The translations under genes and the position numbers were made by a program. Below, in pieces: positions 4,453-50,170 of a stretch of 64,000 nt of DNA. The stretch is from Petasospora fabianii (taxonomy: Eukaryota > Ascomycota > Saccharomycetes > Phaffomycetales > Wickerhamomycetaceae): NCBI GenBank assembly GCA_022641835.1, contig CP048715.1, forward strand, positions 3,064,647-3,128,646. The letters run 5' to 3'. Below the pieces are notes generated by a model. That model was not told where the DNA came from. It made no database searches and saw only the letters and a list, made by a program, of their open reading frames with translations. The first letter of the stretch is position 1. Every line of letters begins with the position of its first letter.

Positions 4453-5629
4453 GACTATATATTGTATGTGTGGGGCGGGAGGGTAAGCTGAACGAGCGGT
4501 TGGGCGGCAGTGGTCCCTATAATGTTGTGTGTTGTGAGTCGTGGACGTAGTCTTTAGTGGTTGTACTTGTAGCGACTGTCTCTGTGTATGTGTATGTGTG
4601 TGTGTGGGGTGAGGTGACCGCGGGGTCTGGGGGTTATTGGGGTTTTTATACGAACGGCTAGCGGTAAGCAGAATGGGTGGTCCGTCGAGCGCGGTAATGC
4701 GGCTGTCTGGGAGGTTTGGGGCTTTGTCTGAATCTTGGAGCCGGCAGGAGGCACGCGAAGCGGAGCGGAGACGCGGGGAAGGGCCATCTGGGATGGGGAC
4801 CACCTGGCTCCTCTCGATATCGTGTATTAGACTCAGAAACAACCATAATTTACAGAACAGCTACCCCTTACCTTCCCTCTTCTACCTTCCTTCACACTGT
4901 ACAGTACTCGCTCGCAACTCAGAGACCACCCCGGAGACTTGCGCCAAACGTGGGGTGGCACCAAAGCAGTCGCGAGTCAGCGGAGTCATTCATCAAATTG
5001 CCGGCGGTTCTTCCTGTTCCGACAAACTCGTTTCGCACAAGACGAAGGCGAGAGAGAGAGAGACTGTGTGTGTTGATGTATGTGTGTGGGTGGGTGGGTG
5101 GACAGAGTAGCATTAAGAAGCTAGTAGAAGTATACGATAATAAAGTCAAATTTAAGAGCCCGCTTGATCTGCAAATGAGGCTCAGATCTGGAGACCATCC
5201 CCTGGCGGCTGGCGGTTGGCGGCTGGGATGACTGGTGACGGATGACGGCATGGCAGACAAGTGTGCAGCAATCTGCCATCTTTCGGAGCGGGGGTCCCGA
5301 TATCACTAACGGATCATCGTTAGTTTGTTCAACGATACCTACTGCAACCCTCACAACACGGAAAAACTGTCCATGCACCCGCATCTATTTCGGAGACTAC
5401 ATCTGTTCTCCGGGCCGATTGTTTTAATGAGGGGAGGTAGGCTTGGGTCGGTAATGTACAGCGCTTACGATCTTAGGACCTCCGCGTGGCACCACCGGTC
5501 TTCGCCGACATGAGATGGAGAGATCAACTGTATAACATCTGTATCATCAATATTTAACACTCAAATCTATCTATTTGGTGGAATAACCAAAAAAAAACAT
5601 GGTATTTAAGACACCTGAGAAAAAAATAA
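4453..5629. other. Intergenic region with GT/GA simple repeats
   Basis: This stretch holds the promoter of the Zn2Cys6 gene and then about 1 kb with no convincing gene. A TGTG-rich tract lies near 4577-4605. A GA run followed by a TGTG/GGGT-rich tract lies at about 5049-5105. Short open frames here have no family resemblance and overlap one another on both strands. Confidence 0.5.
5049..5105. repeat. Low-complexity (GA)n then (TG)n/(GGGT)n tract
   Basis: A run of alternating GA is followed directly by TG-rich and GGGTGGGT-type sequence. It is simple sequence without a coding frame that resembles a protein. Confidence 0.6.
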
Positions 5630-5710
5630 CGACATCTGCAGGATTCGAACCTGCGCGGGTAAACCCAAAAGATTTCTAATCTTTCGCCTTAACCACTCGG
5701 CCAAGATGCC
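5630..5710 (-). tRNA. tRNA-Ser(AGA)
   Basis: On the minus strand an 81-nt sequence folds as a type II tRNA. It has a 7-bp acceptor stem with one G-U pair, a D arm containing GGCCGAGTGGTTAAGG (A box) and an anticodon stem AAAGA/TCTTT with loop TTAGAAA. A serine-type variable arm follows, then the T arm with GGTTCGAATCC (B box). The anticodon is AGA, read as IGA after editing. It is intronless and very close to yeast tRNA-Ser(AGA). A run of six T on the transcribed strand just downstream (5622-5627) is the Pol III terminator. Confidence 0.95.
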
Positions 5711-8091
<2,381 letters not shown>

Positions 8092-11000
8092 ATGTTACGT
8101 TAATTAGATCATGTATAATAATAAAGTCGAAATATTTTGGATAATAAACCCCTCCCCGTCCTTCGTAGCCCGTCAATACTGCAGTATAAGACACGAGAAG
8201 TACTAGTGCATGAGACGGTTTCACAACATAGATCTGAAGGCAGAGGGTAAGAGAGAGAGCTGTAAAGATGGCATGATACTGGAGAGAGTGTGTTGCGCGT
8301 ACCGCCGCGATTCCGCGATTACTTCCTCATCTGGACTCTTTCCCCCTCTTCTGTTGGGAGGAGGGGCTCCCCTCATCTGCCAGGCTGCCACATGGCAGAC
8401 CGTTTAAAGTTGGCGCCGGGGTGATGACAGATCTGGCTCTTTCGCTTGCAGATGAGACGGCAGGAGCGTCTCTGTGAGCGTTCTTCAACTCTTTCACCAC
8501 GAGCGATGCCAGAGGGGCTCCTCTTCCATCCTTTCACCTGTCCTGGCCTGTCCTGGCTGGCTTTCCGGACTGGCCAATCACACTTCCTCACAACCCAGTG
8601 GGAATTGGGTGTCCCGGGACGTCCTCACCTGTGCACACCTGCGTCCGAAGGTGCGCTCTCAAGCGTCGAGCGCGTCCAAAACAGACTTCCACGTTGAGAA
8701 GCCAGAATCCACACTTTCTCGCTAGCTAAACGCCGAGGAGCTCAGAGCTGGCGGAGCACCAGCCAGCGGGAAGGGGAGGGGCGAACAATATACAAGAGCT
8801 TTTGTGTTTGTGAAAAGATTCTCATTTCTTTGTCTTCTTGGCGTCAATACTCAGAGATCTTTGAGTTGTTCATTTATTGGGACTTATGCCCTCTCATCTC
8901 TGCCCTGCGCCCGGGGGCGCTCAGTTGATGTCCATCAACGGCCGCCCGGACATTCACCGTTTATGTCTGCCAAAAATCACTGCTTAGGGCTGTCCCCGAT
9001 GACTTTTGGGGAGTCATTGCTCTCAAACAGAACTGAGAGCCGTAAGAGTTTCACAGGTAGGGCATCAACAGATGTCCATCTCTGATACCTTACTAGTAAA
9101 CTAGGGCTAACCTTACACCTGACAGCTTAAACAGCTGAACGCGCCGCTGATGGGCTTAGCTCCGAGACCCCTACAACGACCATGCTTTTATGTGTAATAA
9201 ACACCCAACGTTTGTCTCTCACTGTCTGATCCCCAGCTTGACACTTGACGCTTGTCCCGTCGATTGCCTTCCTAATGGGACCCCACGGCTGGCCCACGAC
9301 TGACATCAAGTTCCCTTCCGCTGGCCCAGCTGCCAGGCCCACTACTACTGCTTTCTTTAGACAGCCAGAAGCACTGGAAGAAGATCAGGCGCCAAGATAG
9401 AGCAGATCTATTCAGTTTACCGAGGTTTCGTCTGGTACAAAACGCTGCAAAGATAAATCGGACTCCTAAAAAGGACAGGTTACCCCACGCAAGCGATGGC
9501 CACCACCTTCAAGAGACAAACCTATGCTTTTGACACCCATGTCTTGTGAGCTCATCTCGCAATTGGCTACAACTAGTGATCTGGTCAAACTCGTGAGAAA
9601 TAGTGAAAACCGTAACTCGGCAATGGTCCTTTCTGTGCCACTGATACAATCCAGCGATATACTTGTCGCCTAACCTATATACGACCAACAGATATGTTAC
9701 CCTTCGTGTTTTTCGCATGTATTCAATTCCCCCCACATTGCTTTTTGGGGGAAGGGCAACGGGGTTCACATTCATGTCCGCGGTTATGAGCCCTGTCTGT
9801 CCCGGAGTTCAACGTGGGTCCCTTGTCCGCTGGCATGAAGGGTTCCATCACCATTGAGTATGGAGGCCACAACAAAACTAGACATACAACCCGATAAAGA
9901 GCTGATGTTGCTTATCACAATCACTTTGAACAACTGGTAAAAGATATGACTGTACCGTCAATAGTGTTGTTCTAACGCCAAGGACAACCGGCTCTTCAGG
10001 AGAGACGTCTAGATGGGTGTCAAAATACTATATCACAAACGGGTGTATATGACGAGGGAGGTACTGTCAGCGTTAATAGATGTATCCAATCAAAAAAAGA
10101 TTCCCGGGGTACTGAACATCTTTCATTGAATGCTTTGTAACTTGAAAATATGTCAAATCTCCTTCAGTATAGTGACTTTAGAAGACACGTCAAACTATAC
10201 CATGATCAAGCATATGATAAGTAATACTATGACTCTTGACAGATGTATGCCATTTGGCACATGTATATACCCATAAATTCTTGCAGTCAAGATCACTGGC
10301 ATTATTGCTAACCCCAGTGTCCATTTTGTCGAATGGATCCCGAACCCAATTGGCTAATGCCAAAACAGGTGTAGGTGTCGAAAAAAGAGGTGTACATGTC
10401 ACTTTGTCCACCTGGGGAGTCAAGTCGACTCAAACAGCAATGGTGTTGTGGCTTGCACAGCTACGCTTTTGTCAAATGGGTGAGATGTGTACAGTTGTAA
10501 GAGAGTATGGCGTTTGACGTCTTGTTTACGAGACTTCCATTGCGATGAACAAATTGAGATGCTCCAGCTGTCTACCCTATGAGCAGATGACAGTGAGGCA
10601 ACAAACATTCACCTACTTGATTGAACTGCCATGATCCGAAATCGGTGTAACAACATGGTGTGGATTCTCCGGCGGCGCCGCTGTCCCAGTGCGTGTGGCC
10701 TTACCACTGATCGTGTAGATAAGAAGCTTTAAGGTACGGCCACGCTGAATTTTTCTCTTCAAGCGATGAGGTGAGCTCTTAAATAAGGGCCCACTAGAAG
10801 GGTAGCAAGTTGGCCAGAATTTAACTAAAATTTCGTAGTTGAGTCAATCAGTATATGCTCTCTTATTATACATAATTTTGTGAAGATCAGATGGCCTTGG
10901 ACCACAATTATTCGCTACTTACCGATGGCCATTAGCCACTGGCCGCCCCTCCAACGTCCCTCCCACCTCAAAAAGAAACTGCGCGATTCTCATGTCCCTT

Positions 11001-13423: not shown

Positions 13424-15459
13424 TCACTCATCTTGGATGCCCTTCCACTCCTCTTCATCCGCCTGCTCCTCTTCTTGCTCATCCTGATCGTCAGCTTCAG
13501 CAGTGGCATTAGCATTAACTTCAGCATTTTGCTCCTTCTGTTTCTTTCTTGGTCTCTCCTCATCCTCTGGTGGTGGAACAAACCATGGAATCTTACCTCT
13601 GTTGAAATCATTGATAACCAACTTGGCAATACCTTGTTCATCTGGTTCACCACCCTTTAAGAGACGACCGTGTTTCTTGGCCAAGAGTTCAATGAACTCA
13701 GTAGCATTGTTCCAACCAGAAATCTCATAAGTTCTTTCAAGATGCTGTCTTTGACATCTCTTCAAGACACCAGGAATGTACTGTTCAGCGTGTGTAACGT
13801 GTTCAACTCTAACAACACCTCTAAACAAGATATCCTCTTCAGTGTCCTTGGTAGATGGAGGCACAATACCTGGACAATCAATCAAGAAGATTTTCTTCAT
13901 CAATGTGATGTACTGCCACACCTTAGTCTCACCAGGGATAGGAGCAACTTGACAAACCTTCTTTCTTCTCAATGTGTTGATAATACTTGACTTACCAGTG
14001 TTTGGATAACCAATAAATCCGACAGAAATCTGTTTACGATCTGGGTGCAAGGCAGAAAACTGACGAAGAAGCTGAATCAAAGAACCCTTACCGAAAGAGT
14101 TGGTGATCGAAGCGTGGAATGCAATAGTTGGGTGGAATTTGGACAAGTGCTTAACCCAAGCAGCCTGTAGACATTGTTAGTATAAACGATCCAATGACAA
14201 TATAAAACCAATCTTTCTCTTTCGAAATCAAGAAAAATCCATAATCTTTAAAGTTGTTTGTCTGTGTGTCTCAGCCCAGATAAGGAAATAAGAAATAGTA
14301 TATAGAATGTGAGAGTCTTTACTACGAACATCATCCATGAATGGGTCAAGATCACAAAGTGAACAACCCTTCAGAGTTCAACTCATAAGACTCTCTGGAA
14401 CTCCTAAGTGATGGCAGTCAAAACGACACCTTCACAATCCGACAAACCCAAAACGGGTAGTACAGAAGCGGAGACCTCTTGTTCTTCCAAAGCCGTAACA
14501 GACATACTTCGTGAGTGAAAATAGGAAGACATCCTGACAAAAGTCTTTGGTGTAGAAAAGAAAAAACGGGTAGAAAGAGACAAACAGACAACTAAAAGTA
14601 TGAATCTCAATAAGAGAGAAAGGTTAGTAAAATAGTGGGGGAAGACAAAACATACCGCAACCCAAGTTGGCACCAAGTCACACTTGTTCAAGACAAAGAT
14701 CAAGTGCTTGTGTGCAGCCTCCTTCTTGATATACTGCTCAACAGATTCACACCTCGTTCCGAGAGGATCTCTAGCATCCAAGGTGTGTATCACAACATCG
14801 GAGGAATCGATAACTTTGTACAATTCGTTCCAAATTCTCTTCGACTGACCCTTATGGAAAATGTACTCCTTAGCCTCAGCAGTCCAACCATCAGTATCAA
14901 TGTTACCCATGAGACCCATAGTGGCAGCAAGCTCATGCTTCTCCTCAAAGTCCTTAGCATCCTTGTCAGTGGCACCAGCAAGATCTTCCAAACTCGACAA
15001 GGCAACTCTTGGTCTCTTACGCTGAGACTTTGGTCCAAATGTGTGTTCGAAAGTTTCAGTCTCCAAGATCTTACTCGTAGGAGACTCGGTACTGTCCTTC
15101 TCCTCTAGCAGAGACATTGGCAACTTGTTTCTTCTAAGTAAAACCTGGTATGAATCTGTTTGCTTCTCTCCAAGAGCCTCTCTAAAATGGGTCAAGGCAT
15201 CTTGAGAAATGACTCTGGTGTTACCAAACCAACGTCTGTTTGGATCCACACGAGCAGTAGGAGCAGCACTATCCTGCAAGGCAGCAGCCTTGATAATATC
15301 ACCAGCCTTGTTACGAATTGCACGTCCTTGTTTGTACATGTTCAAGTGCTGTACCTTCTTTGCATCACGGTAGAAGTTCTCACCCTTGACACGCAGGTTT
15401 CCGTCCCTGGTGTCATTCTGGCGCACACGACGAGCTTTTTCTTTCTTTCCTGTTCCCAT
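13424..15459 (-). CDS. NOG2: Nucleolar GTPase required for 60S export (two exons)
   Basis: Exon 1 is 14656-15459 and exon 2 is 13424-14164, joined across a 491-nt intron to give 514 residues. This is a circularly permuted GTPase of the YlqF/Nog2 group that binds pre-60S particles before nuclear export. G4 (NKCD, about residue 258) comes first at the end of exon 1. Exon 2 holds G1 (GYPNTGKS, about 320-327) and G3 (DCPG, about 364-367). The join restores the conserved stretch [17 protein letters not shown]. The intron has donor GTATGT, branch site TACTAAC and acceptor ACAG. The unspliced frame stays open for 83 codons, so the gene could be misread as ending in the intron. ESF2 lies upstream in tandem, as in S. 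cerevisiae. Confidence 0.95.
14165..14655 (-). other. NOG2 spliceosomal intron hosting an H/ACA snoRNA
   Basis: The donor G is at 14655 (GTATGT). The branch site TACTAAC lies 11 nt before the acceptor AG, which ends at 14165. The intron is far longer than the other three in the window (59-67 nt), which is explained by the snoRNA inside it. Confidence 0.93.
14305..14552 (-). ncRNA. snR191: Intronic H/ACA snoRNA, snR191 homologue
   Basis: The minus-strand RNA of about 248 nt has a 5' hairpin closed by CCAAAG (14550-14545) and CTTTGG (14492-14487), then H box AGAACA (14485-14480). A 3' domain follows, closed by GAGGTCT just after the H box against AGACTCTC just before box ACA (14310-14308), which is three nt from the 3' end. 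In the 5' pocket GUCA (14538-14535) and GUUAC (starting 14499, exactly 14 nt before the H box) can pair around 25S Psi2258. In the 3' domain AGAGAGU (14396-14390) and UAGU (starting 14324, exactly 14 nt before ACA) can pair around Psi2260. S. cerevisiae snR191 guides these two sites and also lies in the NOG2 intron. Exact ends are estimates, and the 3' domain fold needs an extra internal stem. Confidence 0.8.
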
Positions 15460-34637: not shown

Positions 34638-34734
34638 GTCCCAGTGGCCGAGTGGTTAAGGCGATGCCCTGCTATTCTAAGTAGCTGTTAGGCATTGGGT
34701 TCTACCTGCGCAGGTTCGAATCCTGTCTGTGACG
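34638..34734 (+). tRNA. tRNA-Ser(GCT) with 15-nt intron
   Basis: A type II tRNA starting GTCCCAGTGGCCGAGTGG. The anticodon stem is ATGCC/GGCAT, the anticodon is GCT at 34671-34673, and a 15-nt intron lies at 34675-34689, right after position 37 as expected. A serine variable arm and T arm (GGTTCGAATCC) follow, ending GTGACG. The mature length is 82 nt. The acceptor stem as I align it has one C-U mismatch at the fourth pair. T7 at 34738-34744 is the Pol III terminator. It decodes AGC/AGT. Confidence 0.94.
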
Positions 34735-37682
34735 CCATTTTTTTACTTTTCGTAATTTGAAATGAGTAAAAATCACTTCTCGAATAAGCAAGTTTGGAAC
34801 ACGCACACGCATACGCATGTTTGAGGCTTTCAATAACGCCTGTATAAAGTCTATGGATCTGTACGGTATACTGTGCTTCCTTCTGATCTTTCATGTGTCA
34901 GAATTATGCTCAAACGAGTTTGACTTATAGTCCTACGGTTTGCCGGACGTGCACGGTAGCTTAAAATGCGAGATCGCCGGTCCAGGGCACACAGGGGTAC
35001 CATCTACCGTGTGCGTTGCGTGTTTTTCTTTGTTTAGCTGTCAAAGCTTTATGATCAATGAGTTATGATGTCTTGTCGTGATCTTGAATGAATGAAGCTA
35101 GCTGGTAACTAGCTTATGGTAATTGACTAGCTAGCAACTAGATGAAATCAAATTCGCTACCTGGTGGAACGTCGCGGCTAGTACAACGGGCGTTATTGCC
35201 CTCGCCTAGCTCGTGTCACTGCCAGCATTCCTTTAATCAACATCCTTAATGACTTGGGCCTCGGCTGTATGGGCTAGTCTGAAACAAAAAAATTCTCCTC
35301 CTTGTTACCGGCTATGACATGAATAACTCGTCATGCATCGGTTTCTCCAACGTACAACCCGCGAGTAGCGCCAAAGCTTCGCTGGCATAAGGGTCCACAG
35401 GTGCACGGCAGACGCAGAGACGGGAGTTGACATGGCCAAATATAAAACTTTCATGGCCGTAGAAATGCACGGATCAGGGATCCGAAGTTTGAAGGGAACG
35501 CATGTTCTGCTAGGCTTTACGCCAGTGGCTGAGCCTCGATACAGATCAAGATCTTTAGCGCCTCCTGATGCTGGCCCAGTACATGGGACGCGTGAAAGAG
35601 ATGAGGTAGCCGAGCTGCAAGGCTAGTTCCCGTTGTGAATTTTCACTCGCTGTATTTTGCATTGATGTTGGAACTATAAGCTGTGCCATTGAAGGCTGAG
35701 GTGAAAATTTCCGATGGGATTGGTGCTAGCTGCTGGTTGGTCATCCCGAAGTTGCCGGAATCGGCAATTTGTGTAGGCAGAGGACACCAAACACGAGAGA
35801 AGTTTATGGATTCAGATTTCAGACGTAAGCCGTAGGCCCGTAGCTGTAGCCCTAGGTCGCGAAACCAGTCCAAATTTCAGTGTGCTGCAGCGATGTCTTA
35901 GGGTACAGAAGCGTAAGTTTGGGATGAAAACAAAGAAAGAGAAAGCGAGAGATGGTTGGCTTGTACCTGGACTTGGGTAGGAAGATGGTCCAGTGGGGAG
36001 GAGAATAGTAATGACCTCCGCGCATTGGATGCGTGCTTTTTAATCCATGGTGCCGGTGCTGGATTTTTGGGATTGGGTTATTTAAAGAGACTTGACAGCG
36101 GGCCAGCACAGGCAAGCGAAAAGCTTTCTCATGCAGTGAGGCGAGTACGTCCGGACCTAGCGGAGCTTCTGGGCCTGGGAGGCGGGTCTCAAAACTTCAA
36201 AATCCAAAACACAACGTTCAACGTTGATGAAGGGCAAGCTGCAACCACGAATGTTTGTTTCATTACTTGTTTCCTTGTGTAAATTATTCTCTACTATAAG
36301 CTTGAGAGTAGGATAATCAGGTTGAACTAGAATTCAGTAATGTGTACATCTAGACAAGCCCTGTTAAGGTTGGTACGTGGTTGTAGGAATCTATCATTAT
36401 AATCCCTGACACAAAGTGGTTAGAGAAGTAGTTCAAGAGAGCGATTAGGTACTATGTGTACAGCATCAATAAAGATTTGCACTTTGACCATATCAATGAG
36501 TCGGGCCAAATTTGCCTAGGATGAGAGGTGAGAGCATCATGTAGGAAACTCAGTTGAGGCTCCACACTAAGTCCTGAAAGTCTCGACCATGCGCGTCTCG
36601 TTTCATGGGTGTGCTACACCAACAAACAACAAACAAAAGGAGCTTGCAAGACCACCCGTCACCGGGCAGTTCAGGAAAAGAACTGTGCCTTTGTCTAACA
36701 GCGACATCACAGATTATGTACTTAGCAGCAGATGTAGAGGTGCCGGGAGGAATTATGCCCGCTGAGTTTCGCAGAGAAGGGCGTGTTCCAAGCTGAAGGC
36801 GGATTTCAGCTGGCAGGAGTCCTCGTGTTGATCTCTTGGGATGTGAGCATAGAGATGGCGGTGTGTGTTCGCGCTAGAAACGTCTAGAGCTTGTTCTCGT
36901 GCAGCCACGGCAACGTCAGCTTGTGAAGAGCTCACAGAGAATAGCATTGTCGGCACCATAAGAGCCCTCATGCGTGTTTCCGCTAGTAGCCGAGAGCATC
37001 GCTTGCGAAGACGACCACGACGACAAGTACTTGAGGAGATGGATGGATGGTGGAGAGTTCCTGTGCTGGTTCGCAAATCGTATGAAAGAGAGATGATGGA
37101 TAGCGATTGAGTGAGGGCCACTCTGTCGATCCCCACCCAACTCTAACCACTAGAGAGATTGAGCGCTGAATTTTTCTACACAGAAAGCAAACCGTTGTCT
37201 GCAGCATCTTCTGTATCACCTTGTAGCCCTCAATTCCTAGCAATTCACCGCCAGTGTCAGCTTGCCGACACCCAGTACCTAGCACCGCCTCCGTCATCTC
37301 CTGCCTTTCCCATGCTGGCTGCCCACTGAGTCCCGAGCCGCCCCACAGGCGCGGTAAAAAGAAATTATTTCGATGCTGTGCCCTGTTGATCACCTGTCGA
37401 AACGGGAAATTGTCTGCGTTGGGAGAGCTAGGGCTGCACCATGTTGCAGCCAAAGCAGGCCTCTTAGGACTAGCTTCCATACAAACCGCTGCGAGGGCAG
37501 CACCTACCATGTGCGGTATGCAGGTTATGCCTGAGCCTGCAGTAGCCTGTTTGCCTAATTTTACCTCCCCCCGATGAGTGTTCCATCAAGCCAACCGTAT
37601 ATAAAAAGCCCTCAACTGCCCCCATCTCATCGCTCCCCTCCCTTCTCTTCCTTCCTATCTCTCAACACACTCTTCAAACAAA
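34735..37682. other. 2.95-kb region without a recognisable gene
   Basis: From tRNA-Ser(GCT) to the aquaporin gene only short, unrelated frames are seen. A patch of GCTAGC/ACTAGCT-rich inverted sequence lies near 35098-35145. The right end contains the aquaporin promoter. No known RNA gene or transposon signature was found. Confidence 0.5.
37598..37606 (+). promoter_or_regulatory. TATA box of aquaporin gene
   Basis: TATATAAAA lies about 77-85 bp before the aquaporin ATG, the normal distance for a yeast TATA-containing promoter. Confidence 0.6.
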
Positions 37683-49645: not shown

Positions 49646-50170
49646 TTAAACGTCGATGTCGACAATCAATTCATCACAACCCCAGTCCTCATAGGAGCCA
49701 TCTGGGAGATATCTTCTGATAACGAGAGGGATCTTTTTCTGTGAAAGTTCCTTCATGGCAATCTGAAGTGGATCTGTTTCGCCTTCGAGGTCGACGAGTA
49801 CTGGTGCATTCATGGAGATCTGGAGTGCACGGGTTCCTAATATTCTAGCTCTCTCGTACTTGGTCATGTAAGGCGTTGTTGTTCTCTGGTCTGAAGGGAT
49901 AGCGAGCTCCTTGTTTGTCTTTCTTCTCTGTTGTTCGTGTGAAAATTCATCTGGACCGTTACCACCATTGACGATCACTCTTCCATCTTCCGTTGTCTCC
50001 TGGACAGGCTCTTGTGGTTCCTCGAAGTCTGACTGATACTCTTGGTCGAAATCCTCGAAGTTTTCGTTTCCATCGTTGAAGCTGTGAGGGGTGTTAGTCT
50101 CCTGTCATGCGCGTGCCGTAATGAGTCCTTGTATCAAAAGAACTTACGCATCATCACCGTAGTCAGACAT
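49646..50170 (-). CDS. RPO26: Shared RNA polymerase I/II/III subunit ABC23 (Rpb6), two exons
   Basis: Exon 1 (50148-50170, seven codons plus two bases) and exon 2 (49646-50081) give 152 residues, against 155 in yeast. The join makes [19 protein letters not shown], matching the yeast N-terminus. The body carries the invariant Rpb6 sequence [19 protein letters not shown] and [16 protein letters not shown]. The subunit is common to all three nuclear polymerases and helps clamp and assemble the core. The 66-nt intron has donor GTAAGT, branch site GACTAAC and acceptor ACAG. S. cerevisiae RPO26 also has an intron close to its start. It is divergent from PZF1 with 253 bases between the ATGs. Confidence 0.96.
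50082..50147 (-). other. RPO26 intron (66 nt)
   Basis: GTAAGT at 50147, CTAAC 11 nt before the acceptor, acceptor ACAG ending at 50082. The restored protein junction AFNDGNENF is a direct family match. Confidence 0.95.

Follow-up and report, generated by a model that had tools for sequence, protein, structure and literature searches.

A predicted snR191 box H/ACA snoRNA inside the NOG2 intron of a budding yeast

What does the long intron of NOG2, a gene whose protein takes part in ribosome assembly, carry in this yeast, and what would the RNA released from it do? The gene lies in a window of 64,000 nucleotides, the whole stretch of DNA analysed here, which, judged by its genes, is from a budding yeast, and it occupies positions 15459–13424 of the minus strand as two exons. 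Exon 1 begins with the ATG (14656–15459), exon 2 ends with the stop codon (13424–14164), and the 491-nt intron between them (14165–14655) has GTATGT at its 5′ end (14650–14655), CAG at its 3′ end (14165–14167) and TACTAAC at 14176–14182, with 11 nt between the end of TACTAAC and the end of the intron. Removal of minus-strand positions 14655–14165 joins the exons into a single open frame and gives an unbroken protein of 514 amino acids; the unspliced frame stops within the intron (ORF 14404–15459). Pfam domains NGP1NT and MMR_HSR1 are found on the spliced protein, Nog2 is its top match among solved structures, and the alignment with the solved yeast Nog2 extends through both exons and across the junction (VPTWVAAAWVKHL), with an E-value of 8.6e-265. 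These matches point to NOG2 as the host gene. A search for relatives of the exon-2 protein in viral contigs returned nine stretches that matched the pattern, none of which was confirmed.

The original prediction gave the length of this intron as eight times that of the others. It is indeed longer, but by about 7.4-fold and in a single comparison (491 versus 66 nt), as the intron of RPB6/RPO26 is the sole other one with support. A consensus intron scan of the window, which can miss introns with other signals, yielded 10 candidate pairings, two of which were accepted (NOG2 and RPB6/RPO26); the remaining candidates include one of 73 nt on the plus strand (10245–10317). The 66-nt intron lies close to the start of RPB6/RPO26 (window 50082–50147, minus strand), with the signals GTAAGT, GACTAAC and CAG, and the joined protein matches both Pfam Rpb6 and the solved yeast Rpb6.

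Within the NOG2 intron, cmscan aligns the Rfam snR191 model (RF01263) to minus-strand positions 14305–14552 over its full length (model positions 1–273 of 273), which delimits an RNA of 248 nt. The score of 98.8 bits passes the gathering cut-off of 46 and is twice that value, and the E-value is 3e-23 in the search of the intron region and 2.5e-21 in that of the whole window. snR191 is the only RNA family matched within 14050–14800 at E-values up to 1, and across the whole window at E-values up to 0.1 there are, besides snR191, two tRNAs and no other RNA family. The covariance-model search had been put forward as a check on the original prediction, which named snR191 and NOG2 and gave the same coordinates to the nucleotide; the end-to-end match and the Nog2 alignment bear it out on each of these points.

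Box H/ACA snoRNAs have two pocketed hairpins, an H box (ANANNA) between them and an ACA three nt from the 3′ end, with a distance of 14–16 nt from pocket to box. The hairpins, both boxes and the spacings are all present here, in addition to an extra middle domain and with a weak lower stem in the 5′ hairpin. As originally read, the H box is AGAACA (14480–14485, RNA positions 68–73), and the ACA (14308–14310, RNA positions 243–245 of 248) is three nt from the RNA end. The 5′ hairpin (14487–14550) is defined by the covariance model and by the letters of its lower stem, CCAAAG (14545–14550) with CUUUGG (14487–14492), both strands of which are present as described. In isolation this stem has a pair probability of only about 0.30–0.31 and the hairpin a folding-energy z of −0.50 against shuffles; the complete RNA is not unusually stable either (z −0.29), and the 5′ hairpin is missing from its centroid fold. 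In the alignment to the Rfam model, the inner stem of this hairpin is flanked by the two arms of the 5′ pocket, GUCA (14535–14538) and GUUAC (14495–14499).

The 3′ hairpin (14311–14395) is unusually stable, with a z of −2.51 against shuffles for 14305–14395. Its lower stem is formed by GAGAGUCUU (14387–14395, RNA positions 158–166), which pairs free of mismatches with AAGACUCUC (14311–14319, RNA positions 234–242) with probabilities of 0.555–0.998, and the model alignment places its inner stem between GAGU (14381–14384) and UAGU (14321–14324), the arms of the 3′ pocket. From the first letter of GUUAC to the H box the distance is 14 nt, and it is equally long from that of UAGU to the ACA, as had been reported. 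Between the two hairpins lies a branched middle domain (14397–14476), closed by GG-U-CUCC with GGAG-UU-CC at pair probabilities of 0.47–0.60; the stability of the middle stretch (14384–14480) is not unusual (z −0.75).

Which uridines would these pockets present? The target was the helix 69 motif of the 25S rRNA, and the numbers U2258 and U2260 were assigned to its letters by us. In the 5′ pocket, GUCA pairs with UGAC 3′ of U2258 and GUUAC with GUAAC 5′ of it; in the 3′ pocket, GAGU pairs with ACUC 3′ of U2260 and UAGU with ACUA 5′ of it. A 25-mer of helix 69 has exact matches in 32 genome-contig records, nine of which are titled as bacteria and were run through Rfam; eight of the nine are classed as eukaryotic large-subunit (LSU) rRNA and contain the motif, and the ninth, L013, as archaeal. 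Chosen by an exact match to the motif, the eight rRNAs are uninformative on the conservation of helix 69, and what they do show is that the motif is real eukaryotic LSU sequence, while supplying competing U sites. Under the assigned numbering, the Am2256 tabled in PMC8307265 falls on an A; the table lists snR191 for positions 2258 and 2260 of 25S rRNA, in helix 69, and PMC8476143 likewise gives these sites.

When all U positions are scanned, U2258 comes first for the 5′ pocket in six of the eight rRNAs and second in L014 and L032, where the sites that outrank it have only a 3-nt run on one side; for the 3′ pocket, in its Rfam-type form, U2260 comes first in seven and second in L007. The fit is thus to helix 69 of eight eukaryotic LSU records rather than of the host's own 25S rRNA. 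When the intron was shuffled 20,000 times with its dinucleotides kept, 25 of the resulting sequences contained both 4+4-nt pockets with a box 14–16 nt on, 522 the first pocket and 980 the second, and the short guide arms, taken alone, are modest evidence. Together with the family match, the sequence identifies the RNA at 14305–14552 as snR191, its two pockets matching the U2258 and U2260 sites.

The records used as targets merit a remark of their own. The eight that hold eukaryotic LSU rRNA under bacterial titles (L004, L006, L007, L014, L017, L018, L026 and L032) look like contamination of bacterial assemblies, L013 carries archaeal LSU rRNA under the title Mollicutes, and L018 has a group I intron match (5392–5807) in its eukaryotic LSU rRNA that overlaps or adjoins helix 69 (5384–5408). 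A 30-mer of helix 69 had no matches in viral contigs. snR191 was sought in the eight genomes behind the rRNA records and found in none; the controls also gave 0 of 14, which makes that search uninformative either way.

The same match could be left by a decayed snR191, its sequence kept but the RNA no longer made or no longer guiding, with a second copy elsewhere doing the work. There is precedent for snR191 changing its place: in Kazachstania africana the intron is gone and another copy lies at a different place (PMC4202332), and in C. parapsilosis and C. orthopsilosis snR191 lies outside NOG2 (PMC5033589). In the moves described there, however, the NOG2 intron was lost or is too short for the snoRNA, and is in no case kept with an intact copy inside. 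Here, the boxes, arms and spacings are all intact. Compared with the Rfam consensus, 34 of the 76 model pairs are unchanged, 3 are changed on one side, 15 are changed on both sides, 1 is broken and 23 are gapped, counts that come from one sequence in an alignment itself fitted to the model. Fifteen pairs changed on both sides against one broken is not what a relic would be expected to show, and we consider a relic very improbable. In the 3′ lower stem seven of eight model pairs are unchanged and one is changed on both sides; of the six closing pairs of the middle domain, five are changed on both sides.

These paired changes also bear on how the 3′ half of the snR191 RNA folds. In the original prediction, AGAGAGU served as the 5′ guide arm for U2260 and GAGGUCU/AGAC(U)CUC as the lower stem, so that one large 3′ element would match U2260 by 7+4 nt. 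The letters are present, and UAGU stands as an arm for U2260, as do GUCA and GUUAC for U2258. In this alternative fold the U2260 match scores 11 rather than 8, with U2260 ranked first in all of the eight rRNAs but L007, where it is second. The RNA's longest complementarity to helix 69, 8 nt (AGAGAGUC), also lies here. The roles given to AGAGAGU and GAGGUCU nevertheless fail: AGAGAGU (RNA positions 157–163) overlaps GAGAGUCUU and belongs to the lower stem with AAGACUCUC, an arm at that place would not adjoin the inner stem of the 3′ hairpin, and GGUCUCC instead helps to close the middle domain, in a stem that the GAGGUCU pairing would break together with its paired changes. The best fold with that stem is 2.9 kcal/mol worse, at pair probabilities of 0.001–0.002. 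Shuffling the RNA produces AGAGAGU in 107 of 2,000 cases and a match of at least 8 nt in 165 of 2,000, and a second guide mode through the long AGAGAGU match was rejected as being within that first expectation. The covariance model, fold energies and paired changes agree on GAGAGUCUU/AAGACUCUC as the lower stem and GAGU as the arm; the rival geometry, despite its longer rRNA match, is rejected on the last two and is very improbable.

The intron thus almost certainly encodes, as far as its sequence can tell, the budding yeast box H/ACA snoRNA snR191, which would be trimmed to about 248 nt and guide the pseudouridylation of U2258 and U2260. By analogy with snR191 of S. cerevisiae and with what is established for H/ACA snoRNAs in general, the NOG2 pre-mRNA would be spliced, the intron debranched and then trimmed to the 248-nt RNA, which H/ACA proteins would hold. 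Its 5′ pocket, GUCA/GUUAC, would present U2258 of helix 69 in the 25S rRNA for modification, and its 3′ pocket, GAGU/UAGU, U2260. There is a slim chance that the middle domain, besides holding the guides, has another role, such as contacting a further protein or a site on the pre-60S particle, and that this partly explains why snR191 has remained long and linked to NOG2.

That S. cerevisiae snR191 is intronic in NOG2 (PMC8476143) and assigned to both sites (PMC8307265) is published, as the original prediction had stated. As with S. cerevisiae snR191 (RF01263), compared here through the Rfam consensus, the RNA has the same family, host gene, boxes, two pockets and target sites. A branched part between the H box and the 3′ hairpin is found both in the Rfam consensus and here, and PMC12389098 describes a multi-branch loop in the S. 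cerevisiae RNA. At 248 nt the RNA is shorter than the model, with its 273 positions, and than S. cerevisiae snR191, which has 274 nt (PMC12389098). Of the 76 model pairs 23 are gapped, and the loop of the 3′ hairpin is longer than that of the consensus (21 versus 7 unshown positions). A 2025 report describes in vitro binding of S. cerevisiae snR191 to the lipid PIP2 (PMC12389098).

Other fungi place the arrangement in context. One survey gives the NOG2 intron position as retained in 72% of surveyed fungi, notes that the intron encodes snR191 in S. cerevisiae and shows H/ACA snoRNAs within the NOG2 introns of eight intron-poor species, in one case with parts of low confidence; it suggests coordinated expression of host gene and snoRNA and discusses what the link means (PMC8476143). 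Loss of the intron removed snR191 from the genome of Naumovozyma dairenensis (PMC4202332). In a synthetic S. cerevisiae chromosome XIV without the intron, a growth defect is described on glycerol medium at 37 °C, with NOG2 mRNA and protein unchanged (PMC10667330). snR191 is also reported within NOG2 in C. albicans, Lodderomyces elongisporus and S. cerevisiae (PMC5033589); for the first two, compared by description, the host gene and the intronic location are the same as here, but the paper covers CTG-serine yeasts, whereas CTG in this window mostly faces leucine. This can be seen in a glycogen debranching gene, where 20 of the first 25 CTG codons could be read by eye against the printed alignment with a solved relative: they face leucine in 16 cases, phenylalanine in 3 and proline in 1, and serine or alanine in none, so the codons suggest that a CTG-serine or CTG-alanine yeast is not likely as the host. 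Elsewhere in the window, ARAGORN under its bacterial setting calls a tRNA-Pyl (cta) on the plus strand at 34638–34737, where Rfam finds a tRNA; from its sequence, a serine tRNA (anticodon GCT) that contains an intron is the likelier reading.

As the arrangement has already been described in S. cerevisiae and in further yeasts, snR191 in this NOG2 intron is a real but ordinary find. Beyond annotation it means little: it corrects the earlier reading of the 3′ pocket, adds one more yeast with snR191 inside NOG2 and provides a data point on the survival of the NOG2 intron in intron-poor yeasts.
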